NCBI RefSeq assembly: GCF_022899355.1
Contig: NZ_JALJCK010000003.1
Coordinates: 186,001 to 250,000 of the forward strand
Origin: Shinella yambaruensis
GTDB taxonomy: Bacteria; Pseudomonadota; Alphaproteobacteria; Rhizobiales; Rhizobiaceae
Length of the DNA stretch: 64,000 nt
Direction: 5' to 3'
The notes below the pieces were generated by a model. The model was not told where the DNA came from. It did no database searches and worked only from the letters and a program-made list of their open reading frames with translations. This document shows, in pieces, positions 6,176-52,677 of this stretch; within the stretch, counting starts at the first letter, position 1; every line of letters begins with the position of its first letter. The position numbers and the translations under genes were made by a program.

Positions 6176-6195
6176 TGTTTTTAAGGGCGTGAAAG

Positions 6196-6355: not shown

Positions 6356-6362
6356 CAGGCCC

Positions 6363-6701: not shown

Positions 6702-6859
6702 GGGCGGTTCCTTCTAGAAAACAGGGGTGCTCACCGTTTAAGCCCGCGCCGCGGGAGCGTCAATCACGCAAAATCTATAGCAATTCCCGAAAAGGCGCGA
6801 AGCGTGCCGCCCCCGGGACGAAAGAACGCCGCCTCTTCGTTCGAAAGCGCACAAGTATC

Positions 6860-17653: not shown

Positions 17654-17784
17654 ATCTCTATCCCTCTGGTTAAACGTCTCGCTTTTGCCGGGAACGGCCG
17701 TTCATCCCGGTCGGTCAATCGTCTTTTCTTCTCTCGGCCTCATTCTCCCTTGCAGGCCGGCGGCTGCCGCCGCCGGCGAACCGG

Positions 17785-36101: not shown

Positions 36102-37763
36102 TCAACCCACCGTCACGTAGCCGATGCCCTTCTTCGCGATCTCGTCGAGCGATTCGTCATAACCGGCATCGGCATAGCGGATGACGCCGAGCGACGTGTC
36201 GTTCGTCAAGGCATGCTCCAGCCGTTCCGCACCGTCCGCCGTGCCGTCGGCGACGAGCGTCACGCCGCAGCTCGTCATATAGCCCGCATAACCGCCGCCG
36301 CCCGAATGAATGACGACGAGATCGGCCATGGAGGAGGAGAGCAGCATGGCGTCGAGCAGCGGCCAGTCGGCAATGGCGTCCGAGCCGTCCTTCATGCGCT
36401 CGGTCATGATGTTCGGGTGCGCCATGGCCCCGGCATCGAGATGGTCGCGCGAAAAGGCGACCGGCCCCTTCAGTTCGCCGGCCGCAACCAGCCGGTTGAC
36501 CGCCAGCGCCAGCGCCGTGCGCTCGCCGTGGCCGAGCCAGGCGATGCGCGCCGGCAGGCCCTCGAAGGGCACGTTGTCCCGCGCCAGCCGGATCCAGTTG
36601 GTGACGATCCCGTTGTCCGGGAACATCTCCAGGACGAGATCGTCGATCCGCGCGATGTCGCTCTCCGCGCCGGACAGCGCCATCCAGCGGAACGGCCCGA
36701 TGGCCCGCGCGAAGAGCGGCCGCAGATAGGCCTCGGTGAAGATCGGGATGTCGAAGGCATTGGCGACGCCCCCTTCCCGCGCCTGCGTGCGGATCAGGTT
36801 GCCGTTGTCGAACACCTCGGCGCCCTGCCTCTGGAATTCCAGCATGGCCGAGACATGCTCGACGATGGAGGCGCGGCTTGCCGCCATCAACTGCCCCTGC
36901 CCGTCGTCGCGCAGGCCCTTCACCTGGTCGAGGCTCATGCCCTTCGGCACATAGCCGTAGACGAGATCGTGCGCCGAGGTCTGGTCGGTGACGATGTCGG
37001 GCACGATGCCGCGCCGGGCGATCTCCGGGTAGATTTCCGCCGCATTGCCGACGAGCCCGATCGAGGTCGCGCGCTTCTCCTTCACGGCTTCGTCGATCAC
37101 CGAAAGCGCCGTATCGAGATCCGGCGCGACATGCTCCAGATAGCCGACGGCCTTGCGCGCCGCCGCGCGCGCCGGATCGATATCGACGCAGAGGATGGCC
37201 GCCCCCGCCATACGGCCGGCAAGCGGCTGTGCGCCGCCCATGCCGCCGAGGCCGGCCGTCAGGATGAAGCGGCCGGCGAGGCTGCCGCCGAAGCGCTTTT
37301 CCGCGATGCGCATGAAGATCTCGTAGGTACCCTGGATGACGCCCTGGCTGCCGATATACTGCCAGGCCCCGGCCGTCAGCCCGCCCCAGCAGATCAGCCC
37401 CTTGCGCTGGAGCTCGTAGAAAACCTCGGCCTTCGCCCATTGCCCGACGATGTTGCAGTTCGCCATGATGACGAGCGGCGCCTTGGCATGGGTCTTCAGC
37501 AGGCCGACCGGCTTGCCGGACTGGATAATGAGCGTCTGGTCCTCGTCCATCTCCGTCAGCGCCTTGACGATGGCCCTGTGCGCCGCCCAGTTGCGCGCCG
37601 CCTTGCCGAGCGCGGCATAGACGATGAGATTGTCCGGATCCTCGCCGACCGACAGAACGTTCTCGAGGAGCCGCAAAAGCCCCTCCTGCCGCCAGCCCCT
37701 GGCGCGCAAAACGTCGCCGCTCGGGATCGGATAGTTCGGATGGCGCGGATTGGGCTTGGGCAT
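36102..37763 (-). CDS. Urocanase-family hydratase, probable thiourocanate hydratase
   Basis: A 553-residue urocanase-fold protein. It keeps the NAD-binding core 'FILTAGLGGMGGAQPLAGRMAGA', the 'TLIIQSGKPVG' and 'WQYIGSQGVIQGTYEIF' segments. It diverges from HutU elsewhere: the usual 'SLHNGGGVGWG' region reads 'VIHSGGGGYAGYM', and the N-terminus lacks the common HutU opening. With a MIO-less HAL homologue and a DUF917 gene in the same operon it is best read as thiourocanate hydratase, giving 2-thiohydantoin-5-propionate. ATG 37763 behind GAGGAGA was chosen over ATG 37784. Separated from the DUF917 gene by a family A repeat. Confidence 0.78.
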   Translation of the reverse strand: MPKPNPRHPNYPIPSGDVLRARGWRQEGLLRLLENVLSVGEDPDNLIVYAALGKAARNWAAHRAIVKALTEMDEDQTLIIQSGKPVGLLKTHAKAPLVIMANCNIVGQWAKAEVFYELQRKGLICWGGLTAGAWQYIGSQGVIQGTYEIFMRIAEKRFGGSLAGRFILTAGLGGMGGAQPLAGRMAGAAILCVDIDPARAAARKAVGYLEHVAPDLDTALSVIDEAVKEKRATSIGLVGNAAEIYPEIARRGIVPDIVTDQTSAHDLVYGYVPKGMSLDQVKGLRDDGQGQLMAASRASIVEHVSAMLEFQRQGAEVFDNGNLIRTQAREGGVANAFDIPIFTEAYLRPLFARAIGPFRWMALSGAESDIARIDDLVLEMFPDNGIVTNWIRLARDNVPFEGLPARIAWLGHGERTALALAVNRLVAAGELKGPVAFSRDHLDAGAMAHPNIMTERMKDGSDAIADWPLLDAMLLSSSMADLVVIHSGGGGYAGYMTSCGVTLVADGTADGAERLEHALTNDTSLGVIRYADAGYDESLDEIAKKGIGYVTVG

Positions 37764-37795
37764 GGTCGTCTCCTCAGCGTTCATGGGGAGGTTCA

Positions 37796-37949
37796 CCCCC
37801 CTCTGCCCTGCCGGGCATCTCCCCCACAAGGGGAGAGATCGGCTGGACGCGATGGCATCTCTTCATTTGCAACGGCAGCCTGAGGCTAGACGTTGCCTCT
37901 CCAATCTCCCCCCTTGTGGGGGAGATGCCCGGCAGGGCAGAGGGGGGTG
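37796..37949. repeat. Intergenic palindromic repeat, family A (inverted pair)
   Basis: Inverted units at about 37796-37842 and 37901-37949, inside the ergothioneine-type operon between the DUF917 and urocanase-like genes. Confidence 0.85.
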
Positions 37950-37966
37950 CAGCCGCACCCATCCGC

Positions 37967-39064
37967 TTAAACCGTCGTCTCCAGCGCATACCGCGCCAGC
38001 TCGATCCCCATCGCCTTCTCCACCGACGGATAGACGGTCGGATCCAGCACGCTGGAGGCGAGCGGGATGATCGTCTTCGGCACGTGCAGCACGAACACCG
38101 TCATGCCGGCCTCGAGCTGGCCGACGCTGAGCGGCTCGCCCTCGGGCGAGAGCGTGGTGATGACGTCGGGGAACGTGGCAAGGCGTTTGCCGCCCGCCGA
38201 TTCCACCGCCATGTATTCGTTCATCACATGCAGCACGGAGGCATCGTCCCCCCTGCCGACCGTCACCGTGCCGATGTCGAAGGCTTCCTTCGTGTAGACA
38301 ACCGACTTGTCCGTGATGACACCCTCTGCGAGGATCGAACCGCCCGTCGTCCTGACGATGGCGTCGATGATCGCCGCACCGCCCTTGCCCTCGGCGGCGA
38401 TGATCGCCTCGCCGAGCTTCAGGGCCAGCGAGATGCCGCCGAGCGCCGCGTTCCTGCGCACATAGGAGGCGCGCAAGGGATTGCGGCAGGAAGCGATGAA
38501 GCCGCCGGACATGTCGGAGGCCGTGCGCAGGATCGGCGAGACCTTCGCGGTCGCGCCGCGCACGACGAGCTCGATATAGCGGTTCTCGTCGCGGTTTCCC
38601 CCCACGGCGGTCTGGATCATCTGCTCGGGCGAGCCCGCCATGCCGATCGACCCCATGTCCCCGGTCGGATGCGCCCGCATGTCGCCGACGGCGTCGAGCA
38701 CCTTCGTGCCGAGGATCGCCGCGGGCAGCCAGCCGTTGAGCGTCGAGGACTTGCCGTTCTGCCCGACCATCAGCGCCGCGACCTTCTCGCCGAGCGCGTC
38801 CTGCAGAAGCTCCACCGCCTTCACATAGTCGACGCCGCGCATTTCCCAGGGCGTGGTGGAGGCCGGCGCGCCGATGGCGGCGGCGGTCGCCACCCAGTCG
38901 TCATCGGACAATTCATCGATGGAGACCAGCTCCGGCTTGCCGATCGAGACGGCGGCATAGCCGAGCATGCGGCCATGGTCCGCCCAGCCACCGCCGCCGG
39001 CGGCATAGACCGAGCCGCCCTTGACCGCCGCCTCGACGTCTTTTTCCTTTAAGATCCGGCCCAT
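37967..39064 (-). CDS. DUF917 protein, probable thiohydantoin-propionate desulfurase
   Basis: A 365-residue protein of the DUF917 family, now named after S-methyl-thiohydantoin desulfurase. Family features: 'GGGGWADHGRMLGYAAV' at the N-terminus, 'GRMLG', 'NRDENRYIELVVRG' and 'LAEGVITDKSVVYTKEAFDIGTVTVGR'. In the known ergothioneine route a DUF917 enzyme hydrolyses 3-(5-oxo-2-thioxoimidazolidin-4-yl)propionate to hydantoin-5-propionate and sulfide. ATG 39064 follows AGGAGG and overlaps the end of the M20 gene by 16 bases, so it is tightly coupled. Confidence 0.8.
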   Translation of the reverse strand: MGRILKEKDVEAAVKGGSVYAAGGGGWADHGRMLGYAAVSIGKPELVSIDELSDDDWVATAAAIGAPASTTPWEMRGVDYVKAVELLQDALGEKVAALMVGQNGKSSTLNGWLPAAILGTKVLDAVGDMRAHPTGDMGSIGMAGSPEQMIQTAVGGNRDENRYIELVVRGATAKVSPILRTASDMSGGFIASCRNPLRASYVRRNAALGGISLALKLGEAIIAAEGKGGAAIIDAIVRTTGGSILAEGVITDKSVVYTKEAFDIGTVTVGRGDDASVLHVMNEYMAVESAGGKRLATFPDVITTLSPEGEPLSVGQLEAGMTVFVLHVPKTIIPLASSVLDPTVYPSVEKAMGIELARYALETTV

Positions 39065-40335
39065 CGGACGTCCTCCTGACTCAATGTCTTATCCAGTTGA
39101 ATCACCGCGTTAAAAAGCACCGCCGCGCCGAGCGCGATATCGTCCGTCTCGGCGAACTCCTCCGGCGCATGGCTGCGCCCGCCAAGGCAGGGCACGAAGA
39201 TCATCGCCGCCCGCGTCACCTTCGCCAGGAAGGCCGTGTCATGCCCGGCACCGGAGGCCATGCGGCGATGGCTTGCGCCGGCCATCTCGCAGGCCGCATC
39301 CAGCACATCGAGCAGCAGCGGATCGCCGGGCGTCGGCATGTTGTCGGAGAGGCGGCGCGGCGGCGCGATGAGCGTGCCGGTCTCCCGTGCGAGCTGCTCC
39401 GCCATCTGCTCGACGGAGGCGGCAAAAACATCCATCGTGGTGCGGTGCTCGGCCCGCGCGTCGATCAACAGGCGCGCGCGCGACGGCACGACATTGGCCG
39501 CGTTCGGCGCGATGGAGAATTCGCCGACGGTCGCCGTGAAATGCCCCGGTCCTTCCGAGAGCGACTTCGCCAGCGCCTCGATGCCCGTTACCAGCCGTGC
39601 CGCGGCCGCAAGCGCATCGGCGCGCGCGCCCATCGGCGTCGTGCCGGCATGGTCCGCCCGGCCCTCGACGATGATCTCGATGCGCGTGATGCCGGCGATC
39701 GCCGTCACCACGCCGATATCCAGTTTTTCCGTTTCCAGCACCGGCCCCTGCTCGATATGCAGTTCGAGGAAGGCCGCGATGTCCTTGCGGGCCTGCGCCT
39801 GCAGGCGCGCCGGGTCGCCGCCGACATCGCGAATGCCCTGCTCCAGCGTCAGGCCGCTGCTCTCGCGCGCCAGCCAGTCCGCCGGCAGGACGCCGGCCAT
39901 GCCGCGGCTGCCGATGCAGGAGACGCCGAAGATCGACACTTCCTCGGCAAGGAAATCGACGACCTCCAGGTCATGGTCGAGTTCGATCCCCTGGTACGCA
40001 AGGGCGCAGGCGACTTCCAGCGCCACCGCCACGCCGGCGATGCCGTCGTAACGCCCGCCGTCCGGCACCGTGTCGGAATGGGAGCCGAGCATGATCGTGC
40101 CGAGGCCCGGTTTCCTGCCCGGCCGGCGGGCGATGAGATTGCCCGCGGCGTCGATGCGCGTTTCGAGCCCGGCCGCCCGAAACCTCTGGTCAAGAAAATC
40201 CCGCCCCGCCGGGAACAGAGCGGTAAAGGCACGCCGTGTGTAGGGCCGGCCGGGCTCGGTGAGCCGGGCAAGCCCGTCGATCACATCCTCTATGCGGGCG
40301 GGATCGACCGGCAGATTGGTTCGCGGCGCCGCCAT
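39049..40335 (-). CDS. M20-family amidase, probable N-carbamoyl-L-glutamate amidohydrolase
   Basis: A 428-residue Zn/Mn amidohydrolase of the HyuC/AllC/AtuE subfamily. Metal-site motifs are 'LGSHSDTVPDGGRYDGIAGV', 'FLAEEVSIFG' and 'LELHIEQGPVLE', with the dimerisation-domain substrate motif 'GRADHAGTTPMGAR'. The subfamily hydrolyses N-carbamoyl amino acids and allantoate. In this operon N-carbamoyl-glutamate is the logical substrate and L-glutamate, CO2 and NH3 the products. Its ATG at 40335 overlaps the preceding stop by one base. Confidence 0.85.
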   Translation of the reverse strand: MAAPRTNLPVDPARIEDVIDGLARLTEPGRPYTRRAFTALFPAGRDFLDQRFRAAGLETRIDAAGNLIARRPGRKPGLGTIMLGSHSDTVPDGGRYDGIAGVAVALEVACALAYQGIELDHDLEVVDFLAEEVSIFGVSCIGSRGMAGVLPADWLARESSGLTLEQGIRDVGGDPARLQAQARKDIAAFLELHIEQGPVLETEKLDIGVVTAIAGITRIEIIVEGRADHAGTTPMGARADALAAAARLVTGIEALAKSLSEGPGHFTATVGEFSIAPNAANVVPSRARLLIDARAEHRTTMDVFAASVEQMAEQLARETGTLIAPPRRLSDNMPTPGDPLLLDVLDAACEMAGASHRRMASGAGHDTAFLAKVTRAAMIFVPCLGGRSHAPEEFAETDDIALGAAVLFNAVIQLDKTLSQEDVRWAGS

Positions 40336-41714
40336 CAGGGGGCACCTGCGGAAACGAGCGTCGGCAACGGGCGCACGAAGGCGCCGGACCCGGGTTCGGC
40401 GAGCACCCGTTTGCCGTCGAAGGCGAGCTTGCCGCGCAGCCAGGTCGCCGAGACGCGCCACGGCAGGCGGATGCCGTTATAGGGCGACCAGCCGACGACG
40501 TTGTGGCCGCTCGCCGCCGCGTCATAGCTGTAAGGCTCGGGCGTCAGCACGGTGATGTCCGCGTCCTTGCCGGCTTCGAGCGCGCCCTTCACATGATCGA
40601 GCCGGAAATGCCGAGCGGGGTTCAGGGCCATCAGCTCGGCCGCCCGCGTCAGCGGAATGCCGCGCTCCAGCGCGCCCTTGACGAAGAGCGGCACCATGAC
40701 CTCCAGCCCCGGCACGCCGGAAGCGTTGGCCAGCATGTCCGGATTGGTCTTGCGGTCCTCCGACCAGCTCACATGGTCGGTGGAAACGAGCGTCACATTG
40801 CCCGCGGCGACATGCCGCCAGAGCTTTTCGACCTCGGCGCGCGGGCGGATCGGCGGGTTGATCTTCGCCTTGCCACCGAGCCGGGCGACGTCGTTCTCCT
40901 CGTCGAGCGTGAGATAGTGGATGCAGCACTCGATGGTCGCCCGAAAACCCTGCGCGCGATAGGCGCTGGCGATCTCGTAGCCCCGGCCGAGCGAGCAATG
41001 CACCACATGGGCCGGGCAGCCGGTTGCCGCGCCGGTCTCGTAGATCTGGTTGGAGGCGATGAGTTCCGTCAGCGGCGGGCGCGACAGGCCATGGGCGCGG
41101 TAATCCGTGATGCCGGCCGCCTTCACCCTGGCGATCGCGGCGCGCACCGCCTCGTCGTCCTCGTTGTGCACGCCGGCCGTCAGACCGGTCGGGGCGATGG
41201 CGCGGAAGCAATCCTCCAGCAGCGCCGCCGGGATGCGCGGAAAGCGCTTCGGGTCCGTGCCGAAGGTGGAGAACTTGAAGGCCGCGACACCCGCCTCGAC
41301 CATTTCCCCGATCCGCGCCGGCCCCTCCTGCGGATCGACCGTGCCGTAGAGCGCGAAATCGACGCGCGCCTGCGGCCCGGCATGGTCCACCTTGCGCCGC
41401 ACGGCCTCGGCCGAGCACACGAGGTTGCCCTCGTCATAGGGCATGTCGACGATGGTGGTGACGCCGCCCGCCGCCGCCGAGCGCGTCGACCAGATGAAAT
41501 CCTCCTGGTTCTTCTGCGACAGCGAATGCACCTGCGCGTCGATCGCGCCGGGAAGGATCAGCGCGCCCGAAAGGTCGTGCCGCTCCCTCGCCGCCGGCAT
41601 GGCCCCCTGGCCGATATGCGCCACCTTGCCGTCACGCACGGCGACATGGCCGCCGTCGACGATGCGATCCGCCAGGACCACGGTGCCTTTCAGGACGAGA
41701 TCGAAATCGGCCAT
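40335..41714 (-). CDS. Hydantoinase/dihydropyrimidinase-like amidohydrolase
   Basis: A 459-residue cyclic amidohydrolase. The N-terminal sandwich part leads to 'PGAIDAQVHSL', where the first metal-binding His of the usual H-x-H is Gln61 (Q-V-H63). The bridging Lys is in 'VAAFKFSTFG'; further ligands are likely in 'GVHNEDDE', 'HVVHCSLG' and 'VSTDHVSW'. It should open the hydantoin ring of hydantoin-5-propionate to N-carbamoyl-glutamate. It lies 12 bases after the HAL-like gene and overlaps the M20 gene, consistent with translational coupling. Confidence 0.83.
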   Translation of the reverse strand: MADFDLVLKGTVVLADRIVDGGHVAVRDGKVAHIGQGAMPAARERHDLSGALILPGAIDAQVHSLSQKNQEDFIWSTRSAAAGGVTTIVDMPYDEGNLVCSAEAVRRKVDHAGPQARVDFALYGTVDPQEGPARIGEMVEAGVAAFKFSTFGTDPKRFPRIPAALLEDCFRAIAPTGLTAGVHNEDDEAVRAAIARVKAAGITDYRAHGLSRPPLTELIASNQIYETGAATGCPAHVVHCSLGRGYEIASAYRAQGFRATIECCIHYLTLDEENDVARLGGKAKINPPIRPRAEVEKLWRHVAAGNVTLVSTDHVSWSEDRKTNPDMLANASGVPGLEVMVPLFVKGALERGIPLTRAAELMALNPARHFRLDHVKGALEAGKDADITVLTPEPYSYDAAASGHNVVGWSPYNGIRLPWRVSATWLRGKLAFDGKRVLAEPGSGAFVRPLPTLVSAGAP

Positions 41715-41726
41715 GGTCTGTCTCCG

Positions 41727-43265
41727 TCAGGGCTTGAGGGCGAAGAAGGCGTCGAATTGCGCCATGGGCGCGGCCTCCACGAAGGCGGCAAGCGCCTCGG
41801 GGCTGGCAAGGTCGCGGTCGAGCGCCTCGATCTCGGCGGAAAGCGGCCGGTCCTTGCGGTAGAACGGGCTGATCGCCCGCGTGCGCTGGTAGGCGATGGC
41901 GACGACGCCGGCGACATTGTCGCCGGCAAGGTCGATCGCCTGGGCGGAGAGCATGGCTTCGAGGGCGGCGAGCTGGCGCAGGTCCCGCACCTGGCTCTCC
42001 ATGCGCTCGACGATCAGCGGCAGGAAGGTAGCCTCCTCCTCCAGCCCGCCGGCGACGACGATGGACTGCGCCGAGATCGGCACCGCCAGCGACTGGATGC
42101 GCATGTAGAGCTCCACCGCGAGCTTCAGGAGCGGCCCGAAGCCCGTCGCCGTCTCGCCGGGCGCCACGAGGTTGACCGGCAGGTTGCGGCGCACGCCGTT
42201 GGCAAGCAGCACGCAGCGGTTCAGCACGTTGCGCGCAAGATGGGCGAACCCCGTCTGCGCCGCCTCGACATAGAGCGTCGTCGAGAGCGGCAGCGAGCCG
42301 CCGGAGGCCATGACGTGGTTGTCGAGCACGACCGGATTGTCGTCGGACTGCGCCGTTGCCTCGACGATGCGCTCGGCGGCGTTCATCAGCGTATCGAGGC
42401 AGGCGCCGAAGACCTGCGCGGTCATGCGCAGGCTGAGCGGATCGTGGATCGCCGACGGCTTCGGCCAATGGCCGGAGGCGGCCTGCGCCTCGAACCAGGT
42501 GCCGGCAAGCGCCTCGCCATGGGCCGAGAGCCTTGCCGCCACGCGCCAGGGATCGGCCGAGGCGCCGAGCGCCAGCGAGGAGAGAACGCCCGTCACCATG
42601 AGGTTGCGGATCGCCATCGCCGCCTCGCGCACCACATTGGCCGCCGCGGCATGCGAGATGGCATTGACGCTGAGGGCGGCCAGCGCATCGCGCGGCTGCA
42701 TGCGATAGGGTTGGAGGCCGGCGCGCTTCAGTGCCTCCAGGGCCGGCAGGCGTTCGCCGCCGTACCACGCCTCGCCCTCGCCGGTCAGGACCGCCGCGAT
42801 CTGGCCCATCAGGCCGATATCGGCGCAGCCCATCGAGCCATGCCGGCGCACGACGGGCACGACATCCCGTTCGAGCAGCCCGAGCAGGGCGTCGATCAGC
42901 TCCGGGCTGCAGCCGGAATAGCCGCCGAGCGCGGTGTTGACGCGAATGCCCATTGCCTTGCGCACGATCGGCAGCGTGAACGGCTCGCCGGTGCCGAAAT
43001 GGTGGGCCCTCACCAGGCTGTTGTTGAACTCGATGAGGTCGTCGGCCGTCCAGAGCTTGTCCTTCATCGAGCCGACGCCGGTATTCGCGCCGTAGATCGG
43101 CAGGCCCGTGGCGAGGCGATCGGTGATGACGCGGCGCGACGTGCCGACACGCCCCATGCCGATCTCGCAGGCCACCGGCCGACGCGCGGCCGTGCCGATC
43201 GCCTCCAGCGTCGCGAAATCGAGCGGCTGGCCGGTCAGATAGAGCGTGTCGGCGGAAGCGAGCAT
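41727..43265 (-). CDS. HAL-superfamily lyase without MIO triad, probable ergothionase
   Basis: A 512-residue aromatic amino acid lyase homologue. It aligns with histidine ammonia-lyase at 'YGANTGVGS' (58-66), 'DPLSLRMTAQVFGACLDTL', 'SDDNPVVLDNHVMASGG' and 'GGLEEEATFL'. The sequence that should contain the self-processing Ala-Ser-Gly (family: G-S-V-G-A-S-G-D-L) reads GSMGCADIG, with Cys147-Ala-Asp149 in its place, so the MIO electrophile cannot form. Known ergothionases are HAL relatives lacking MIO that eliminate trimethylamine from ergothioneine to give thiourocanate. The downstream genes supply the remaining four steps. ATG 43265 is the best start. Confidence 0.8.
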   Translation of the reverse strand: MLASADTLYLTGQPLDFATLEAIGTAARRPVACEIGMGRVGTSRRVITDRLATGLPIYGANTGVGSMKDKLWTADDLIEFNNSLVRAHHFGTGEPFTLPIVRKAMGIRVNTALGGYSGCSPELIDALLGLLERDVVPVVRRHGSMGCADIGLMGQIAAVLTGEGEAWYGGERLPALEALKRAGLQPYRMQPRDALAALSVNAISHAAAANVVREAAMAIRNLMVTGVLSSLALGASADPWRVAARLSAHGEALAGTWFEAQAASGHWPKPSAIHDPLSLRMTAQVFGACLDTLMNAAERIVEATAQSDDNPVVLDNHVMASGGSLPLSTTLYVEAAQTGFAHLARNVLNRCVLLANGVRRNLPVNLVAPGETATGFGPLLKLAVELYMRIQSLAVPISAQSIVVAGGLEEEATFLPLIVERMESQVRDLRQLAALEAMLSAQAIDLAGDNVAGVVAIAYQRTRAISPFYRKDRPLSAEIEALDRDLASPEALAAFVEAAPMAQFDAFFALKP

Positions 43266-43380
43266 TTTCAAAAAGCCTGTCTCGAACGGCAATCCCGGCA
43301 AAAGCGCCCGTCCGGAATGCGTAAAACCGAATGCGGATGTTATGCGGAACGCGGCCCGAACCCATATCCCAAAATCCGTA

Positions 43381-43399
43381 CGGTTCATGCTATGAACCG
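43381..43399. promoter_or_regulatory. LysR-type operator candidate (T-N11-A palindrome)
   Basis: A perfect inverted repeat CGGTTCAT-GCT-ATGAACCG, containing TTCAT-N3-ATGAA and therefore the T-N11-A core recognised by LysR proteins. It is in the 163-bp divergent region, 30 bases before the LysR start and about 116 bases before the ergothionase-like start, positioned for autoregulation and operon activation. Confidence 0.7.
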
Positions 43400-43428
43400 A
43401 ACAGACGGAAAACCCGAAGGAGCCGCCC

Positions 43429-44592
43429 GTGGATCTATCCACGCTTCGCCTTGTGCACAGCATTCTCGAAGAACGCGGCATCCGCAGGGCGGCGGCCGCG
43501 GAAGGACGCCCCGCCTCCAGCGCCAGCGCGGCGCTGCGCCGGATGGAGGCCGTGCTGTCGGTGCCGCTGGTGCGCCGCGACGGGCAGGCGCTCGTGCCGA
43601 CGCTCGACGCCGAGGCCCGCCTGCCGCGCTTCGCCGAAATCGCCGAAGCGGCCGCCGCGCTCGCCGCCCTCGGCAAAGGCGGGGAAACGAGGCCGGCCGT
43701 CTCGCTCGCCGCCCTTTCCCGCTTTTCCGCGACGGCCCGCGCCGGCAGCATCAACGGCGCCGCCAAGTCCCTCGGCCTCGGCCAGCCGCAGCTCACCCGC
43801 CAGCTCAGCCATCTGGAGGCGGCGATCGGCTGCAAGCTCCTCGCGCGTTCGGCGACGGGCATCACCTGCACGCCCGCGGGCCTGGAAGCGCTGGCGCTCG
43901 CAGAACGCATCGGCGCGGCCTGGGAGTCCCTCTCCACCGCATCGGCCGAACGGTTCCGCCGCAGCGCCGCCACCTGGCGGCTCGGCGCGATCATCCCCTT
44001 CGGCCATGAAAGCGAGATCGCCGCCATGCTCGCCCGCCTCGCCGTGGCGTGGCGCGCGGTGCGGCCCCGCCAGCCGCTCTTCCTCTCCTCCACCACGGCG
44101 GACGAACTGGTCTCGGGCCTGAAAAACCGCCGCTTCGACCTGATCCTGCTCGACACCGACCGCTACCCCGCCGAATTCGAAGGCAGCCTGATCGGCCGCT
44201 CCCGGCTGGCGCTTGCCGGCCCGCGCAGGCTGGACAGCGCCGAGAAGCAGGATTTCGCAACGCTGCTGTGCCATTACCCGATCGCCGTGCCGAGCCCGCG
44301 CAGCGGCCTGCGGCAGATGACCGACCGCTTCCTCGAAGCGACGCTTTCCCCCGCCGAGCGCACCCGCCTGACGCTGGTGGAGGTGGATTCGATCCCCGTC
44401 ATCATCAATCTCGTGCTCGGCCACGGCCATCTCTCGGTGCTGCCGGAGCACTCCGTCGCCAACATCAAGCCGCCGCCGGCGCTGCTGCCGCTCGATGACG
44501 CCTACCAGCAATCGCTGAGCCTCGTCTGGCCGCGCGACGCGCTTTCCCGCAAGGCCGCCGAGACGATGCTCGCGTTGCTGACAAAGGCCTAG
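43429..44592 (+). CDS. LysR-family regulator with two tandem N-terminal HTH domains
   Basis: A 387-residue regulator, about 85 residues longer than a normal LysR protein because the DNA-binding domain appears twice. Residues 1-60 (LSTLRLVHSILEERGIRRAA...RRMEAVLSVPLVRR) have the LysR wHTH pattern in degraded form. Residues 92-152 (LAALSRFSATARAGSINGAAKSLGLGQPQLTRQLSHLEAAIGCKLLAR) are a standard copy. The C-terminal effector domain covers about 170-385. It probably controls the divergent ergothioneine operon. GTG 43429 follows GAAGGA. Its stop overlaps the convergent AraC-type gene by four bases. Confidence 0.82.
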   Translation: MDLSTLRLVHSILEERGIRRAAAAEGRPASSASAALRRMEAVLSVPLVRRDGQALVPTLDAEARLPRFAEIAEAAAALAALGKGGETRPAVSLAALSRFSATARAGSINGAAKSLGLGQPQLTRQLSHLEAAIGCKLLARSATGITCTPAGLEALALAERIGAAWESLSTASAERFRRSAATWRLGAIIPFGHESEIAAMLARLAVAWRAVRPRQPLFLSSTTADELVSGLKNRRFDLILLDTDRYPAEFEGSLIGRSRLALAGPRRLDSAEKQDFATLLCHYPIAVPSPRSGLRQMTDRFLEATLSPAERTRLTLVEVDSIPVIINLVLGHGHLSVLPEHSVANIKPPPALLPLDDAYQQSLSLVWPRDALSRKAAETMLALLTKA

Positions 44593-45563
44593 CCCTTCGC
44601 CCCGGCCCTCAGCCGGCGACGGGTCTCCGTCGGGCTCTCGTGATAGTGCGCCCGGTAGCTGCGCGAGAAGGCGGAGGAGGAGTTGAAGCCGGTGAGCGCC
44701 GCGATATCGGCAAACTCGGCCCTCGTCTCGATGACCTTGCGCCGGGCGGCATTGAGGCGGAGCGCGAGATAGTGCTGGTGCGGCGCGACGCCCATCGTCT
44801 CCTGGAACAGGTCCTGGAGATGGCGCGCGCTGACGCCGACGCGCTTTGCAAGCCGCGTCAGGGTGAGCGGCGCGTCCACCGTCTCCTCCATCAGCCGCAC
44901 CGCCTGGCTGACGCGCTGGTCGGCGACGCGCATGTTGCCGAGCGCCGGCACCTGCAACAGGCCGCCGGTGCGCTCGTGCTCGTAGATGAAGAGCCGCGAG
45001 ACTTCGAGCGCCAGCGAATAGCCCTGCCGGCGGCGGATGATCTCCAGCATCAGGTCGAGCGTCGGCAGCGAGCCGCCGGTGGTGATGCGCTTGCCGTCGA
45101 TGACGTAGCGCTGCCGCTCGACGTCGATCTGCGGATAGGCGGAGGCGAATTCCTCCATGTCCTCCCAGTGGATCGTTACGGAATGGCCGTCGAGCAGGCT
45201 CGCCTCGGCAAGCAGCCAGCTGCCCGATTCGATGCCGGCCATGGCGATGCGGTGGCGGGCGGTCTGCGAGAGCTGGCGGCGCAACAAAGGCGTCGCACTC
45301 ATCTGCCATTGATAGCTCGACAGCACGAAAAGCGGCTGGGTCTCCCGCTCCGGCCGGAACGGACCGTCCACGGGCACGGGGATGCGGCTGCGCGTTTCGA
45401 CCGGCAAGCCGTCGGGCGAGAAAATCCGCCAGCGGTAAAGGTCCTGGCCGGAGATGCGGTTGGCGGCGCGCAGGGGCTCGATGACCGAGGCGACGAGGAT
45501 GAGGTTCGTCTCGGGCAGGACGAGAATATCGATGTCGAGCGTTTCCGAGGAGGGATCCAGCAT
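44589..45563 (-). CDS. GlxA-type AraC family regulator (CdhR-like)
   Basis: A 324-residue regulator with an N-terminal class I glutamine-amidotransferase/DJ-1-like domain (about 10-195) lacking an obvious catalytic Cys at the elbow ('AMAGIESGSWLLAEA'). A C-terminal AraC double HTH follows (about 220-315, 'LTLTRLAKRVGVSARHLQDLFQETMGVAPHQHYLALRLNAAR', 'ADIAALTGFNSSSAFSRSYRAHY'). This architecture includes CdhR and GbdR, known regulators of carnitine and glycine betaine catabolism. It is divergent from the BKACE/carnitine operon and probably activates it. ATG 45563 (after AGGA) is preferred to TTG 45599. Confidence 0.88.
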   Translation of the reverse strand: MLDPSSETLDIDILVLPETNLILVASVIEPLRAANRISGQDLYRWRIFSPDGLPVETRSRIPVPVDGPFRPERETQPLFVLSSYQWQMSATPLLRRQLSQTARHRIAMAGIESGSWLLAEASLLDGHSVTIHWEDMEEFASAYPQIDVERQRYVIDGKRITTGGSLPTLDLMLEIIRRRQGYSLALEVSRLFIYEHERTGGLLQVPALGNMRVADQRVSQAVRLMEETVDAPLTLTRLAKRVGVSARHLQDLFQETMGVAPHQHYLALRLNAARRKVIETRAEFADIAALTGFNSSSAFSRSYRAHYHESPTETRRRLRAGAKG

Positions 45564-45677
45564 GCGGCGATCCTGCGGCTCCGTCTCCCGAATTGTCAAG
45601 GATGGATCCGAAAAGTGAAAGCACTGCGCCTTCTCTTGGCTCGTAATGGCTTCAACGAGAATACTGGGAGAACGACA

Positions 45678-46592
45678 ATGCCCCTAGCGATGAACCGCGA
45701 CGTTTTCATCACCTGCGCCGTCACCGGCTCCGGCGACACCGCCGGCAAATCCCCCCATGTGCCGCGCTCGCCGAGAGAGATCGCCGAATCGGCGATCGAG
45801 GCCGCCAAGGCCGGTGCCGCCGTCGTGCACTGCCATGTGCGCGATCCGGAAACCGGCGCGCCGAGCCGCCGCAACGACCTCTACCGCGAGGTGACCGAGC
45901 GCATCCGCGACGCGGAAGTCGACGTGGTGCTGAACCTCACCGCCGGCATGGGCGGCGACATGATCTTCGGCAACACCGAGCAGCCGCTGCCGCTCAATCC
46001 CAACGGCACCGACATGGCCGGCGCGACGGAGCGCGTTTCCCACGTCGCCGAATGCCTGCCGGAAATCTGTACGCTCGATTGCGGCACGATGAACTTCTCG
46101 CTCGGCGACTACGTGATGACCAACACGCCGTCCATGCTGCGCGCCATGGGCCGGATGATGACCGATCTCGGCGTGCGCCCGGAGATCGAGGCCTTCGACA
46201 CCGGCCATCTCTGGTTCGCCAAGCAGCTCGTCGAGGAAGGCGTCATCGAGGATCCGGTGCTCATCCAGCTCTGCATGGGCATTCCGTGGGGCGCGCCCGA
46301 CGACCTCAACACCTTCATGGCGATGGTCAACAACGTGCCCTCGAACTGGACTTTCTCGGCCTTCTCCATCGGCCGCAACGCCATGGCCTATCCGGCCGCG
46401 GCGGTGCTTGCCGGCGGCAATGTCCGTGTCGGCCTGGAGGACAACCTCTATGTCGGCAAGGGCCAGCTCGCCACCAATGCGCAGCTCGTCGACAAGGCCG
46501 TCAACATCATCGAGAGCATGGGTGCCCGGGTCATCGGCCCGGCCGACGTGCGCGAGAAGCTGAAGCTTACGAAGCGGGCACCGCGGGGCTGA
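45678..46592 (+). CDS. BKACE (DUF849) beta-keto acid cleavage enzyme, dehydrocarnitine type
   Basis: A 304-residue zinc TIM-barrel enzyme of the 3-keto-5-aminohexanoate cleavage/BKACE family. Motifs: 'FITCAVTGSGDTAGKSPHVPRSPREIAESAIEAAKAGAAVVHCHVRDPETG' with the Zn-binding H-x-H, 'VVLNLTAGMGGDM', and 'GNVRVGLEDNLYVGKGQLATNAQLV'. Beside a carnitine dehydrogenase the substrate is 3-dehydrocarnitine: with acetyl-CoA it gives betainyl-CoA and acetoacetate. This pairing is established in Sinorhizobium. ATG 45678 follows GGGAG. Confidence 0.88.
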   Translation: MPLAMNRDVFITCAVTGSGDTAGKSPHVPRSPREIAESAIEAAKAGAAVVHCHVRDPETGAPSRRNDLYREVTERIRDAEVDVVLNLTAGMGGDMIFGNTEQPLPLNPNGTDMAGATERVSHVAECLPEICTLDCGTMNFSLGDYVMTNTPSMLRAMGRMMTDLGVRPEIEAFDTGHLWFAKQLVEEGVIEDPVLIQLCMGIPWGAPDDLNTFMAMVNNVPSNWTFSAFSIGRNAMAYPAAAVLAGGNVRVGLEDNLYVGKGQLATNAQLVDKAVNIIESMGARVIGPADVREKLKLTKRAPRG

Positions 46593-46625
46593 CGGGAACG
46601 AGGCACGAGGGCGCAACGCGTTTAT

Positions 46626-46780
46626 CCCCCCTCTGCCCTGCCGGGCATCTCCCCCTCAAGGGGGGAGATCGGCAAGAAGCAAGTTCCTTGTCTCAACCGC
46701 AACGTCTGTAGAGGGCAAGGCATCTCCCCATCCGATCTCCCCCTTTGAGGGGGAGATGCCCGGCAGGGCAGAGGGGGGTG
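46626..46780. repeat. Intergenic palindromic repeat, family A (inverted pair)
   Basis: Inverted units at about 46626-46672 and 46735-46780 between the BKACE gene and the carnitine dehydrogenase gene. Confidence 0.85.
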
Positions 46781-46819
46781 CCGCATCTAGACACCAAGAG
46801 TTATGAAGGCAGCATCTCT

Positions 46820-48313
46820 ATGACCACCATCACCAAGGCAGCCTGTGTCGGCGGCGGCGTCATCGGCGGCGCATGGGTCGCCCGCTTCGCGCTGGCCGGC
46901 ATCGACGTGAACATCTTCGATCCGCATCCGGAAGCCGAGCGCATCATCGGCGAGGTGATGGCCAATGCCGAGCGCGCCTATGGCATGCTCACCATGGCCC
47001 CGCTGCCGCCGAAGGGGAAGATCACCTTCTGCAAGAGCCTGGAAGAAGCCGTGGAAGACGCTGACTGGATTCAGGAAAGCGTGCCCGAGCGGCTGGAGCT
47101 GAAGCGCGGCGTGCTGACGAAGATCGACGCGGCGGCAAAGCCCGACGCCCTCATCGGCTCCTCCACGTCGGGCCTGATGCCGACGGACCTCCAGCGCGAC
47201 ATGAAGCATCCCGAACGCCTGTTCGTCGCGCATCCCTACAATCCCGTCTACCTGCTGCCGCTCGCCGAACTCGTCGGCGGCCAGAAGACGTCGCGCGCCG
47301 TCTTGGAAGACGCCAAGGCAAAGCTCGCGCCGATCGGCATGAAGGGCGTGATCATCAACAAGGAGATCGAGGCTTTCGTCGGCGACCGCCTGCTGGAAGC
47401 CGTCTGGCGCGAAGGCCTCTGGCTCATCAAGGACGACATCTGCGACACCGAGACGCTCGACGACGTGATCCGCTATTCGTTCGGCATGCGCTGGGCGCAG
47501 ATGGGCATGTTCGAGACCTACCGCATCGCCGGCGGCGAAGCGGGCATGCGCCACTTCCTCGCCCAGTTCGGCCCCTGCCTCTCCTGGCCCTGGACGAAGC
47601 TGACCGACGTCGTCGACCTCGACGACGCGCTCGTCGAAAAGATCGCCGGCCAGTCGGACGCCCAGTCCGGCGCGCGCGGCATCCGCGAGCTGGAACGCAT
47701 CCGCGACCAGAATCTCGTCGGCATCATGCACGCACTGAAGGCGGGCGACGAAGGCCGCGGCTGGGGTTCGGGCAAGCTGCTCGCCGAGTTCGAGGCGCAT
47801 CTCTGGGCCAAGGCCGGCAAGGCGAAGGTCGAGGTTTCCGCAAGCGAACCGCTGCGCCTCGTCGACACCAAGGTCAACGCCGCCTGGGTCGACTACAACG
47901 GCCATATGACGGAGCACCGCTATCTCCAGCTCTTCGGCGACACGACCGACGCGCTGCTGCGGCTGGTCGGCGTCGACTTCGCCTATGTCGAGGCCGGCCA
48001 CAGCTACTACACGGTGGAGACCCATATCCGCCATCTCGGCGAGGCCAAGCTCGGCCAGGCGCTCTACACGACGCTGCAACTGCTCTCCTTCGACAACAAG
48101 CGCATGCACTACTTCACCCGCATCCACGACGCGGCGACGGGCGACGTCATCGCGACGGCCGAGCAGATGGTGCTGCATGTCGACTCAAAGGCCGGCAGGA
48201 GCGTCGACGCGCCCGCCGAGGTGCTGGCGAAGATCGCGCCGATCGCCGAAGCCCATGCCGGGCTGCCGAAGCCGGACGGCGCAGGCCGCAGCGTCGGGCA
48301 AAGAAAGAACTGA
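46820..48313 (+). CDS. lcdH: L-carnitine dehydrogenase fused to betainyl-CoA thioesterase
   Basis: A 497-residue two-domain protein. Residues 1-325 are a 3-hydroxyacyl-CoA-dehydrogenase-fold domain with the NAD motif 'CVGGGVIGGAW' (9-19), 'FVAHPYNPVYLLPLAELVGG' and a helical C-terminal part. Residues about 350-497 are a hotdog thioesterase with 'VDYNGHMTEHRYLQLFGD'. In rhizobia the first half oxidises L-carnitine to 3-dehydrocarnitine with NAD+, and the second hydrolyses betainyl-CoA from BKACE to glycine betaine. The gene is downstream of the BKACE gene, so both activities flank that step. The ribosome-binding site is weak. Confidence 0.9.
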   Translation: MTTITKAACVGGGVIGGAWVARFALAGIDVNIFDPHPEAERIIGEVMANAERAYGMLTMAPLPPKGKITFCKSLEEAVEDADWIQESVPERLELKRGVLTKIDAAAKPDALIGSSTSGLMPTDLQRDMKHPERLFVAHPYNPVYLLPLAELVGGQKTSRAVLEDAKAKLAPIGMKGVIINKEIEAFVGDRLLEAVWREGLWLIKDDICDTETLDDVIRYSFGMRWAQMGMFETYRIAGGEAGMRHFLAQFGPCLSWPWTKLTDVVDLDDALVEKIAGQSDAQSGARGIRELERIRDQNLVGIMHALKAGDEGRGWGSGKLLAEFEAHLWAKAGKAKVEVSASEPLRLVDTKVNAAWVDYNGHMTEHRYLQLFGDTTDALLRLVGVDFAYVEAGHSYYTVETHIRHLGEAKLGQALYTTLQLLSFDNKRMHYFTRIHDAATGDVIATAEQMVLHVDSKAGRSVDAPAEVLAKIAPIAEAHAGLPKPDGAGRSVGQRKN

Positions 48314-48324
48314 CGACGCGAGCC

Positions 48325-48444
48325 GCCCCCCCTCTGCCCTGCCGGGCATCTCCCCCTCAAGGGGGGAGATCGGCAAGGGGCAAGGCGGTGCCACAATCAA
48401 TCTCCCCCCTTGAGGGGGAGATGCCCGGCAGGGCAGAGGGGGGT
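48325..48444. repeat. Intergenic palindromic repeat, family A (inverted pair, compact)
   Basis: Inverted units at about 48325-48373 and 48397-48444 with a spacer of only about 25 bases, between the carnitine dehydrogenase and acyl-CoA dehydrogenase genes. Confidence 0.85.
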
Positions 48445-48492
48445 GGCCACAAATGGCACCTCTCACGAAAAGAGTATGGGGAGGACTTTTCC

Positions 48493-49653
48493 ATGAACTT
48501 CGCATTGACCGACGAACAGCAGATGATCGTGGATACGGTCCGCGCCTTCGTCGAAACGGAAATCTATCCGCACGAAAACGAGGTCGAGCGCACCGGCCAT
48601 GTGCCGCCGGAGCTCGGCCGGGAGATCGCCCGCAAGTGCAAGGAGATCGGCTTCTTCGGCTGCAACATGCCGGAGGAAGTGGGCGGCGCCGGCCTCGACC
48701 ACACCTCCTTCACGCTCGTCGAGCGCGAGCTCGGCCGCGGCTCCATGGCGCTGACCGTCTTCTTCGGCCGCCCCTCCGGCATCCTGATGGCCTGCAACGA
48801 CGCGCAGCGCGAAAAATACCTGCTGCCCGCCGTCAGCGGCGAGAAATTCGACGCCCTCGCCATGACCGAACCGGACGCCGGCTCGGACGTGCGCGGCATG
48901 AAGTGCTTTGCCCGCAAGGACGGCGACGACTGGATCGTCAACGGCACGAAACACTTCATCAGCCACGCCAACATCGCCGATTTCGTCATCGTCTTCATCG
49001 CCACCGGCGAGGAGGATACGCCGCGCGGCAAGAAGAAGCTGATCACCTGCTTCCTCGTCGACCGCGGCACGCCGGGCTTCGAGATCCGCGACGGCTACAA
49101 TTCCGTCTCGCACCGCGGCTACAAGAACTGCATCCTCAATTTCGACGAATGCCGCCTGCCCTCCGCCCAGATCCTCGGCGAGGTGCACAAGGGTTTCGAC
49201 ATCGCCAACGACTGGCTCTACGCGACGCGCCTGACGGTCGCCGCCACCTCCGTCGGCCGCGCCCGCCGCGCCTTCGACTACGCCCTCAACTACGCCGCCG
49301 AGCGAAAGCAGTTCGGCAAGCCGATCGGCGCCAACCAGGGCGTCTCCTTCAAGCTCGCCGACATGATCACCGAGATCGATGCCGCCGACCTCCTGACGCT
49401 GTCGGCCGCCTGGCGGCTCGACCAGGGCCTGCCGTCGAACCGGGAGATCGCCTCGGCGAAGGTCTACGCCACGGAAATGCTTGCCCGCGTCACCGACGAG
49501 GCGATCCAGATCTTCGGCGGCATGGGCCTGATGGACGACCTGCCGCTCGCCCGCTTCTGGCGCGACGCCCGCGTCGAGCGCATCTGGGACGGCACGTCGG
49601 AAATCCAGCGGCACATCATCAGCCGCGACCTGCTCCGGCCGCTGGGGGCGTGA
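48493..49653 (+). CDS. Acyl-CoA dehydrogenase, candidate gamma-butyrobetainyl-CoA dehydrogenase
   Basis: A 386-residue FAD flavoprotein of the acyl-CoA dehydrogenase family: N-terminal helical domain, the flavin/substrate motif 'ALAMTEPDAGSDVRGM', 'VNGTKHFISHA' and the C-terminal 'AIQIFGGMGL'. The usual catalytic base Glu in the C-terminal [YW]-E-G-T motif is Asp366 (IWDGTSEIQ), a Glu-to-Asp change. In this operon the likely reaction is gamma-butyrobetainyl-CoA to crotonobetainyl-CoA. ATG 48493 follows GGGGAGGAC. Confidence 0.82.
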   Translation: MNFALTDEQQMIVDTVRAFVETEIYPHENEVERTGHVPPELGREIARKCKEIGFFGCNMPEEVGGAGLDHTSFTLVERELGRGSMALTVFFGRPSGILMACNDAQREKYLLPAVSGEKFDALAMTEPDAGSDVRGMKCFARKDGDDWIVNGTKHFISHANIADFVIVFIATGEEDTPRGKKKLITCFLVDRGTPGFEIRDGYNSVSHRGYKNCILNFDECRLPSAQILGEVHKGFDIANDWLYATRLTVAATSVGRARRAFDYALNYAAERKQFGKPIGANQGVSFKLADMITEIDAADLLTLSAAWRLDQGLPSNREIASAKVYATEMLARVTDEAIQIFGGMGLMDDLPLARFWRDARVERIWDGTSEIQRHIISRDLLRPLGA

Positions 49654-49677
49654 GCATGGCAGGCGTGGCCCGCAACA

Positions 49678-49831
49678 CCCCCCTCTGCCCTGCCGGGCAT
49701 CTCCCCCTCAAGGGGGGAGATCGGCAGGAGGCGAAAACTCCGCTTGATCGGCAACGCCGGCGGTGGGTTAAACGGTCCCCCATCCAATCTCCCCCCTTGA
49801 GGGGGAGATGCCCGGCAGGGCAGAGGGGGGT
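49678..49831. repeat. Intergenic palindromic repeat, family A (inverted pair)
   Basis: Inverted units at about 49678-49724 and 49784-49831. The right end, AGAGGGGGGT, lies seven bases before the GTG start of the acyl-CoA synthetase gene and is the only purine-rich segment there, so the repeat seems to supply its ribosome-binding site. Confidence 0.85.
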
Positions 49832-49837
49832 AAAGCC

Positions 49838-51898: not shown

Positions 51899-52677
51899 CC
51901 GGACCGATAAGACAGCGCCGCGAGGGCGGCATCCTGGAAGTGACGATCGATCGTCCAAAGGCGAACGCCATCGACCTTGCGACCAGCCGCATCATGGGAA
52001 AGATCTTCGCCGACTTTCGCGACGACGAGAGCCTGCGGGTCGCCATCGTCACCGGCGCGGGAGAGAAATTCTTCTGTCCGGGATGGGACCTGAAGGCCGC
52101 CGCCGCGGGCGACGCGGTCGATGGCGACTATGGCGTCGGCGGCTTCGGCGGCATGCAGGAACTGCGCGACCTCAACAAGCCGATCATCGCCGCCGTCAAC
52201 GGCATCTGCTGCGGCGGTGGGCTTGAAATCGCGCTCTCCACCGACCTCATCCTCGCGGCCGAGCACGCGACCTTCGCCCTGCCGGAAATCCGCTCCGGCA
52301 CGGTGGCCGACGCCGCCTCGATCAAGCTGCCGAAGCGCATCCCCTACCACATCGCCATGGACATGCTGCTGACCGGTCGCTGGCTGGATGTTCAGGAGGC
52401 GCATCGCTGGGGTTTCGTGAACGAGATCCTGCCCGCGGAAAAGCTGCTCGACCGGGCCTGGGAGCTCGCGCGCCTGCTCGAAAGCGGCCCGCCGCTCGTC
52501 TATGCCGCGATCAAGGAAGTGGTGCGCGCCGCCGAGGGCGAGACCTTCCAGGCGACGATGAACAAGATCACCCGCCGGCAATTCCGGACGGTCGATATCC
52601 TCTATTCCAGCGAGGACCAGCTCGAAGGCGCCCGCGCCTTCGCGGAAAAGCGCGATCCCGTCTGGAAGGGGCGATAG
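51895..52677 (+). CDS. Enoyl-CoA hydratase family, CaiD-like carnitinyl-CoA dehydratase
   Basis: A 260-residue crotonase. Oxyanion and catalytic region: 'AAVNGICCGGGLEIALSTDLILAAEHATFALPEIRSGTVADAASIKLPKRIPYHIAMDMLLTGR'. The Glu of 'GGGLE' and the 'FALPE' and 'LPKRIP' segments resemble CaiD more than generic enoyl-CoA hydratases. It would hydrate crotonobetainyl-CoA to L-carnitinyl-CoA. It is coupled to the acyl-CoA synthetase gene by a 4-base overlap and closes the butyrobetaine-to-carnitine set. Confidence 0.83.
   Translation: MTGPIRQRREGGILEVTIDRPKANAIDLATSRIMGKIFADFRDDESLRVAIVTGAGEKFFCPGWDLKAAAAGDAVDGDYGVGGFGGMQELRDLNKPIIAAVNGICCGGGLEIALSTDLILAAEHATFALPEIRSGTVADAASIKLPKRIPYHIAMDMLLTGRWLDVQEAHRWGFVNEILPAEKLLDRAWELARLLESGPPLVYAAIKEVVRAAEGETFQATMNKITRRQFRTVDILYSSEDQLEGARAFAEKRDPVWKGR

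Follow-up and report, generated by a model that had tools for sequence, protein, structure and literature searches.

Five consecutive genes in a 64,000-nucleotide stretch of DNA (the window) from a soil bacterium, a Shinella-like rhizobium, very probably form an operon for the catabolism of ergothioneine to L-glutamate, a pathway already known in other bacteria. The five-step route proposed in a preliminary description of this DNA is supported by curated models, residues, trees, structure comparison and co-occurrence, from which we infer activity on ergothioneine.

Operon structure and predicted pathway

All five genes predicted from the open reading frames of the window lie on the minus strand and are of the kinds originally claimed. 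They encode (i) a lyase of 512 aa with a HAL fold lacking MIO, the presumed ergothionase (41727..43265), (ii) ErtD, a hydantoinase-like hydantoin-5-propionate amidohydrolase of 459 aa (40335..41714), (iii) ErtE, an N-carbamoyl-L-glutamate amidohydrolase of the M20 type (428 aa; 39049..40335), (iv) a thiohydantoin desulfurase (DUF917/S-Me-THD-like, 365 aa; 37967..39064), and (v) a urocanase-like thiourocanate hydratase (36102..37763), which has 553 aa when read from the ATG at 37763. The tight spacing described previously was found at three junctions, i.e., the 12-bp gap between the lyase and hydantoinase genes, the 1-bp overlap between the hydantoinase and M20 genes, and the 16-bp overlap between the M20 and DUF917 genes. 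It does not extend to the fourth junction, absent from the preliminary description, where a palindrome-filled gap of 203 bp (37764-37966) precedes the hydratase gene and makes co-transcription of that gene less certain than that of the other four. The arrangement itself is not due to chance, since all five genes lie on one strand in 71 of the 80 named loci; within the fetched stretches of the remainder, the lyase and D genes were absent in five, the lyase gene in three and the hydratase gene in one.

In the proposed pathway, the MIO-less lyase would cleave ergothioneine to thiourocanate and trimethylamine, a step suggested by its residues, tree placement, fold and genomic partners. The hydratase would then convert thiourocanate to thiohydantoin propionate, from which the DUF917 enzyme would release sulfide to give hydantoin-5-propionate; ErtD would open the ring of this intermediate, and ErtE would hydrolyze the resulting N-carbamoyl-L-glutamate to L-glutamate, CO2 and ammonia. 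These four later steps were assigned by curated equivalog models, and the step chemistry is that of the five-step bacterial catabolism of ergothioneine reportedly described by Beliaeva, Leisinger and Seebeck in 2021. The window has the same five kinds of enzyme as that route, four of them supported here by models, and differs from it in its divergent lyase clade, the palindrome before its last gene, and the adjoining LysR gene and carnitine cluster.

Four of the five proteins exceeded the curated cut-offs of NCBIfam 20.0 equivalog models for the ergothioneine (Ert) route: the hydratase with NF058530 (1041.4 bits, cut-off 930), the desulfurase with NF058529 (602.6, cut-off 440), ErtD with NF058538 (801.9, cut-off 600), and ErtE with NF058540 (597.3, cut-off 520), the last of these also scoring higher (666.7, cut-off 486) with the 'Zn-dependent hydrolase' model NF009531. 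The hydratase scored 680.0 with hutU, above the low cut-off of 375 for that model; in contrast, for an ordinary urocanase from a relative, hutU gave the higher score, 964, against 677 for NF058530. A variant of the pathway acting on S-methyl-ergothioneine was rejected, as the corresponding models were reached neither by the hydratase (729.1, cut-off 880) nor by the desulfurase (NF058532; 288.7, cut-off 450). The lyase was named by no NCBIfam model, its best matches being hutH models at scores far below cut-off, and the same was true of three other ert-cluster lyases that were scanned. The clade to which it belongs is recognizable by residues and gene neighbors and not by a named model. The expectation that automatic annotation would call the operon histidine utilization held in part: the plasmid record of a relative lists a urocanate hydratase, together with an aromatic amino acid ammonia-lyase, a DUF917 protein, an amidohydrolase and a Zn-dependent hydrolase, but NCBIfam 20.0 names four of the five proteins as ergothioneine enzymes.

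The lyase and its relatives

The lyase (P0001) is a member of PF00221 (Pfam Lyase_aromatic). Its top match in the PDB was the ergothionase of Treponema denticola, 6s7j (183 bits; next match, 145), which also headed the search with a profile of the lyase clade (263 bits; next, 208). Foldseek comparison of the AlphaFold model likewise placed 6s7j first, by a small margin (E 1.6e-26, compared with 1.4e-24 for the best HAL); the model is of low confidence at residues 398-411, E409 included. At about 28% identity, the window lyase shares with the Treponema enzyme its fold, its lack of MIO, and residues Y58, K68, K381 and E409, corresponding to the Tyr, Lys, Lys and Glu that we take to be the catalytic set. 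Among alignment rows, which are not independent, this Y-K-K-E set was carried by 86 of the 88 rows of the clade and by 21 of a further 23, as well as by the Treponema chain and by all four lyases from other ert clusters; it occurred in none of 11 HutH or four other paralogues. HutH shares the fold and PF00221 with the window lyase but has MIO: all 11 HutH rows carry A-S-G at the MIO site, with Ala and Val at the two lysine positions. The window lyase has C147-A148 at the triad position, one residue shorter, so MIO formation is not expected, bearing out its earlier description as a HAL-family lyase without MIO.

The preliminary description had held that a lyase grouping among MIO-containing HALs would count against the pathway; the tree joining the clade with MIO-bearing HutH was rejected (p-AU 0.0004, and 2.6e-6 with more clade members). 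Support for uniting the clade with known ergothionases was 97/93, with values of 94/92 after removal of four other ert lyases and 93/90 for a wider clade both falling below the star threshold, and the lyase trees were accompanied by long-branch warnings. Union of the clade with the other MIO-less lyase type (L151, L155) was not rejected (p-AU 0.06). The window lyase belongs to a branch of the family distinct from the structurally known ergothioneine lyase, and its clade is probably sister to the Treponema enzyme plus the Burkholderia-type ert-cluster lyases. The ert-cluster lyases of Burkholderia arboris (L159) and Paracoccus denitrificans (L163), as well as those of L033 and L034, are like the window lyase encoded beside ert B-E, but are only 27-30% identical to it and fall on a separate branch.

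That the operon is a second histidine-utilization (hut) locus can practically be dismissed. The HAL and urocanase folds, and the hydratase score above the low hutU cut-off, would fit such a locus; we rejected it on the models, the missing MIO triad and the trees. In addition, a separate MIO-bearing HutH is encoded elsewhere in the genome (C11, 605 bits), and the operon has a desulfurase, ErtD and ErtE in place of the usual hut enzymes.

The 88 clade rows and five other ergothionase-type rows differ at positions fixed in each (e.g., Met67, Cys147, Gln155), and at the former MIO site the other ergothionases, 6s7j among them, have Glu, whereas the window clade has Cys, Thr or Ala. An invariant Cys, considered as a mark of the clade, was dropped when 8 of 23 further rows proved to differ (15 Cys, 3 Thr, 5 Ala). 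The fixed differences could point to an operon serving a close relative of ergothioneine, most likely its oxidized form, ergothioneine sulfonate, with the divergent lyase tuned to that substrate. PMC13405746 lists among its references a report on bacterial ergothioneine sulfonate catabolism (Yan et al. 2022), cited there for a rhizobial relative, Agrobacterium radiobacter; it also gives BAM63550 as the accession of the ergothionase of Burkholderia sp. HME13. We nevertheless consider this substrate unlikely, as the desulfurase and thiourocanate hydratase both score above cut-off and a sulfonate would have no obvious need of them. The substitution where MIO would otherwise form, together with the importer found beside the lyase in relatives (discussed later), offers handles on the mechanism of a cofactor-free ergothionase and on its substrates.

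Distribution, uptake and the fate of trimethylamine

The desulfurase was found above cut-off in 26 of 199 sampled genomes of the rhizobial family. At a profile threshold of E <= 1e-90, the lyase clade was present in 20 of the 199, all of them desulfurase carriers, and in none of the 173 others. Two relatives carry the other lyase type instead, and four keep ert BCDE in a genome without any ergothionase, which indicates that BCDE can have other feeds. In searches limited to the few top-ranking candidates of each genome, the lyase clade was matched in 28 of 397 genomes across the order, with five other families accounting for 21, and in 5 of 398 genomes drawn across the phylum, all from the family of the window. 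Confinement of the clade to the Rhizobiaceae, an earlier idea, was dropped on the order-wide result. The link between lyase and BCDE is not absolute, since 5 of the 21 loci from other families had no ert B-E gene in the fetched stretch (two of these lie near contig ends).

The BCDE clusters lacking an ergothionase, and the genes of carnitine catabolism that are frequent neighbors of the operon among the 80 named loci, might suggest that the lyase makes thiourocanate from another betaine or N-methylated thiohistidine, with ergothioneine a minor substrate. This is very hard to credit, because the clade retains the Y-K-K-E of the Treponema ergothionase and we know of no alternative substrate of either kind. 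It is possible, although doubtful, that ergothionases fall into two classes, the second being this clade, which occurs in six or more families of the order, accompanied by a glycine-betaine-type importer of its own and in most cases by ert genes, and that the route is modular, exchangeable entry enzymes feeding a shared thiourocanate-to-glutamate core. Modularity is suggested by equivalent clusters that differ in lyase type and by the ergothionase-free BCDE clusters of relatives; we hold the second class to be less probable because Cys is not fixed in the wider clade. If it exists, the change from Glu to Cys (Thr or Ala in some branches) may alter substrate activation or favor oxidized ergothioneine. 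Ergothioneine is an antioxidant of mushrooms; its breakdown is predicted for many genomes of the rhizobial family, and bacterial use could affect the availability of this fungal compound.

The operon itself encodes no uptake system. An OpuAC-type (glycine-betaine-type) importer adjoins the lyase gene in 20 of the 21 loci from other families, 19 of them with all four importer genes, as well as in L036, L057 and L164. A full set of orthologues (61-73% identity) is present in the genome of the window, unlinked to the operon. This ABC transporter, whose orthologues neighbor the same lyase in most of the loci examined from the order's other families, is our best candidate for uptake. As a linked importer, the Pot-type ABC genes at 27.7-31.9 kb were rejected, since other genes intervene and nothing ties them to ergothioneine; a PotA relative (>60% identity) occurs in 34 of 106 fetched loci. 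A carnitine cluster adjoins the window operon, and our literature search found no paper joining carnitine, ergothioneine and a Rhizobium catabolic gene cluster. For ergothioneine synthesis, the genome had no EgtD match, the control genomes likewise having none above cut-off. With respect to trimethylamine, a search for DUF1989, presumably linked to TMAO demethylase (a link we did not find in print), returned one 362-aa ORF; with gln_synth_III, a model that we take to cover gamma-glutamylmethylamide synthetase, the score stayed below the cut-off (241 of 469.6 bits), and neither search established a route for trimethylamine.

Control regions and the intergenic palindrome

Divergent from the lyase gene, on the plus strand, lies a gene for a LysR-type protein with two HTH_1 stretches by Pfam (43429..44592), which probably controls the operon. 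A relative of this protein (>38% identity) is present in 51 of the 80 named loci; our literature search on tandem-HTH LysR proteins returned no paper on this regulator by title. The region between the two genes (43266..43428) contains an inverted repeat at 43375-43405 with 14-nt arms that are 86% complementary, and blocks of the control region are conserved in nine Shinella-type sequences, the window counted. The search for sigma-70-like sites found none, an Rfam scan of 28000-50500 gave nothing at the gathering level, and terminator-like sites numbered 7, compared with 4.2 (sd 2.4) in shuffled sequences. The palindrome at 37764-37966 folds at -150.6 kcal/mol (z -12.55), a stability equaled by none of 200 shuffles, and is a dispersed element: its 19-base arm has 78 exact copies in the genome, and the reversed control has none.

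The operon and its model-assigned enzymes

Five consecutive genes occupy the minus strand at 36102-43265: the lyase gene (41727-43265), a hydantoinase-like gene (40335-41714), an M20 gene (39049-40335), a DUF917 gene (37967-39064) and a urocanase-like gene (36102-37763). The preliminary description had read them, from sequence alone, as a complete ergothioneine catabolic operon, and this reading was borne out by the gene layout and by four of the five enzymes, which scored over their model cut-offs. The operon is a further example of an already known pathway; earlier ergothioneine-related studies reportedly include Beliaeva 2021, Maurer 2019, Muramatsu 2013 and Yan 2022.

Scored in bits against NCBIfam 20.0 models, the products matched thiourocanate hydratase (B; 1041, cut-off 930), thiohydantoin desulfurase (C; 603, cut-off 440), ErtD (D; 802, cut-off 600) and ErtE (E; 597, cut-off 520), while neither of the two S-methyl variant models tried reached its cut-off. 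The M20 protein scored higher still on the general "Zn-dependent hydrolase" model (667 bits, cut-off 486). The hydratase also exceeded the low hutU cut-off (680 vs 375), and an ordinary urocanase of a relative showed the opposite pattern (hutU 964, thiourocanate hydratase 677). The hydratase of the window has 7ned as its nearest PDB entry (806 bits; other urocanases ≤608), deposited under the name urocanate hydratase, which we take to be the Paenibacillus thiourocanate hydratase. For the desulfurase, the only solved relative in the PDB is a distant one, 2o3i.

The gene junctions first described (overlaps of 16 and 1 bp, a 12-bp gap) proved correct. A fourth, absent from that description, is a 203-bp gap between the DUF917 and urocanase-like genes (37764-37966), occupied by a palindrome that belongs to a dispersed element (fold -150.6 kcal/mol, z -12.55). 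A 19-base arm of the palindrome has 78 exact copies, 35 and 43 by strand, in the 6.87-Mb genome, in which the reversed control has none. Among ten relatives examined, with start codons guessed, this gap ranges from about 20 to 602 bp, and the exact 16-base arm lies within it in one (L072). The element, consisting of inverted arms with most pairs about 113 bp apart, is also found between genes elsewhere, for example near 46638-46766, 48339-48431 and 49690-49818. We call the genome Shinella-like because eight Shinella records are among the loci at 92-96% desulfurase identity.

A divergent first enzyme

The window lyase, the presumed ergothionase, is named by no NCBIfam model, reaching 222 and 215 bits on histidine ammonia-lyase models whose cut-offs are 524 and 539. 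Scans of three lyases from other ert clusters (L033, L159, L163) gave the same outcome. Its best solved match is Treponema denticola ergothionase (6s7j), whether in a single-sequence search (183 bits, against 145 for the next), in a profile search (263 bits, against 208) or in a comparison of the predicted fold (Foldseek E 1.6e-26, then HAL at 1.4e-24; mean pLDDT 86.5, below 50 at 398-411).

We aligned 108 lyases: 88 of the window clade (window included), 11 HutH (MIO-bearing histidine ammonia-lyases), four other ert-cluster lyases, four further paralogues and the Treponema chain. Matches of ≤300 bits and exact duplicates were left out; many rows are closely related, and some organisms appear twice, via different collections. 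Residues Y58, K68, K381 and E409, presumably the counterparts of the four catalytic residues of Treponema ergothionase, are all retained in 86 of 88 clade rows; the full set is also present in the Treponema chain and in all four lyases of other ert clusters, and is absent from all 11 HutH and all four paralogues. At the position of the HAL A-S-G triad, the window lyase has C-A, one residue shorter. This site holds Cys in 87 of 88 clade rows and Glu in the five other ergothionase-type rows; in 23 further rows it holds Cys (15), Thr (3) or Ala (5), never Glu, with Y-K-K-E in 21 and Y-R-K-E in two.

In a tree of 39 rows, 19 of them kept from the window clade after thinning at 85% identity, this clade was a single branch (100/100) whose stem was very long (3.79); together with the Treponema enzyme and the lyases of other ert clusters it made up one group (97/93). 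Support for this group was 97/93 with Treponema removed, 94/92 (not starred) with the four other ert lyases removed, and 100/100 with the paralogues removed. A clade of window lyases and HutH was rejected (p-AU 0.0004); a grouping with L151 and L155, two paralogues that lack MIO, was not (p-AU 0.06). When 12 rows from other families were added and the window clade was thinned to 10, the wider clade (100/100) had a shorter stem (1.59), its union with HutH was again rejected (p-AU 2.6e-6), and it joined the known ergothionases at 93/90 (not starred). Grouping with MIO-bearing HAL, which the preliminary description had named as its refutation, was rejected in both analyses. Given these supports and p-AU values, we hold firmly, on sequence comparison, that the window lyase is not a HutH; its clade is probably, but not certainly, the sister of the known ergothionases.

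Distribution and a possibly exchangeable entry step

The desulfurase scored over its cut-off in 26 of 199 family genomes, and the lyase clade (profile E ≤1e-90) was found in 20, all within those 26; the other 173 genomes had no member of it (hypergeometric 1.6e-22, a yardstick only, since kinship among genomes is ignored). Of the six remaining desulfurase genomes, two (G170, G096) carry the other lyase type, and in four (G049, G068, G152, G156) the sole lyase, in the genomes searched, is HutH-type. The loci L035, L037, L039 and L043 hold ert B-E clusters where the genome's sole PF00221 lyase is of the HutH type; these clusters may take thiourocanate or another precursor directly. By Pfam, UbiD and CoA-transferase III genes lie near L035 and a TRAP-type binding protein near L037.

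In the best 80 of 452 confirmed loci, all rhizobial by title, all five genes lie on one strand in 71; the remainder have B+C+E (5), B-E (3) or lack B (1). Eight have no linked lyase, and in the five of these checked a clade member is present elsewhere (53-55% identity). Ten plasmid records carry a desulfurase relative; their fetched stretches held a window-type lyase (51-94%) in three, the other type in two (Burkholderia arboris, Paracoccus denitrificans) and no lyase in five. A Microvirga ossetica plasmid (L160) carries desulfurase, amidohydrolase and M20 genes adjoining an amino-acid-type ABC transporter, with no hydratase or lyase in the stretch. The other lyase type may act outside the cytoplasm, as the L033 lyase (4924-6666) begins with what appears, by eye, to be an N-terminal signal peptide.

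Phylum-wide, the desulfurase was found in six of 398 genomes drawn, five from this family, and the lyase clade in five of 398, all from this family. Order-wide, the clade occurred in 28 of 397 genomes: seven of this family and 21 from five others. Near these 21 lyases we found all of B-E in 11, C-D-E in four and B+C in one; the fetched stretches around five (L192, L193, L195, L204, L205) held no B-E gene, L193 and L195 being close to contig ends. Because of these five, lyase and ert genes are usually, not always, together outside the family. One locus (L175, genome G586) encodes another two lyases that lack the A-S-G triad (6348-8009, 17142-18752), near OpuAC-type-related transporter genes, urocanase and NtaA/DmoA-type monooxygenases.

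Judged by title and abstract opening, no paper found on ergothioneine degradation deals with this lyase clade; the search lacked most subscription papers and so does not prove novelty. Related papers include PMC13405746 and PMC7653990. Bench tests would be worthwhile for the divergent first enzyme, for the importer to which it is linked in other families and for the exchangeable entry step.

Transport, regulation and the carnitine neighbourhood

A relative of the L036 ABC transporter adjoins 20 of the 21 other-family lyases, with all four genes in 19. Three loci (L192, L193, L204) pair a clade lyase with the four-gene importer and no B-E gene in the fetched stretch. The transporter lies inside the cluster in L036, whose fetched stretch contains no D or E, and in L057; in L164 three transporter genes stand beside the cluster, at the stretch edge. 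The L036 binding protein belongs to the OpuAC (glycine betaine) family, and PMC9732360 describes a bacterial ergothioneine importer that is likewise an ABC system. The window's genome has a complete set, unlinked, at another place (C31; binding protein 70-73%, others 61-69%). As EgtD was not found in this genome, the substrate is probably taken up, not made.

Divergent from the lyase gene is a LysR-type regulator gene (43429-44592). Two HTH_1 stretches, which look unusual for such a regulator, are present in eight of ten LysR proteins scanned, the window's among them. The intergenic region contains an inverted repeat (14-nt arms, 86% complementary) within a block that is conserved across nine Shinella-type sequences, counting that of the window. 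A carnitine catabolic cluster follows at 44589-52677, its carnitine 3-dehydrogenase scoring over its cut-off (904.8 vs 592) and its AraC-type regulator and keto-acid cleavage enzyme matching their families below theirs. The searches made demonstrated no trimethylamine route. Near the best 80 of 452 loci, relatives of the carnitine regulator occur in 48 and of the dehydrogenase in 44.
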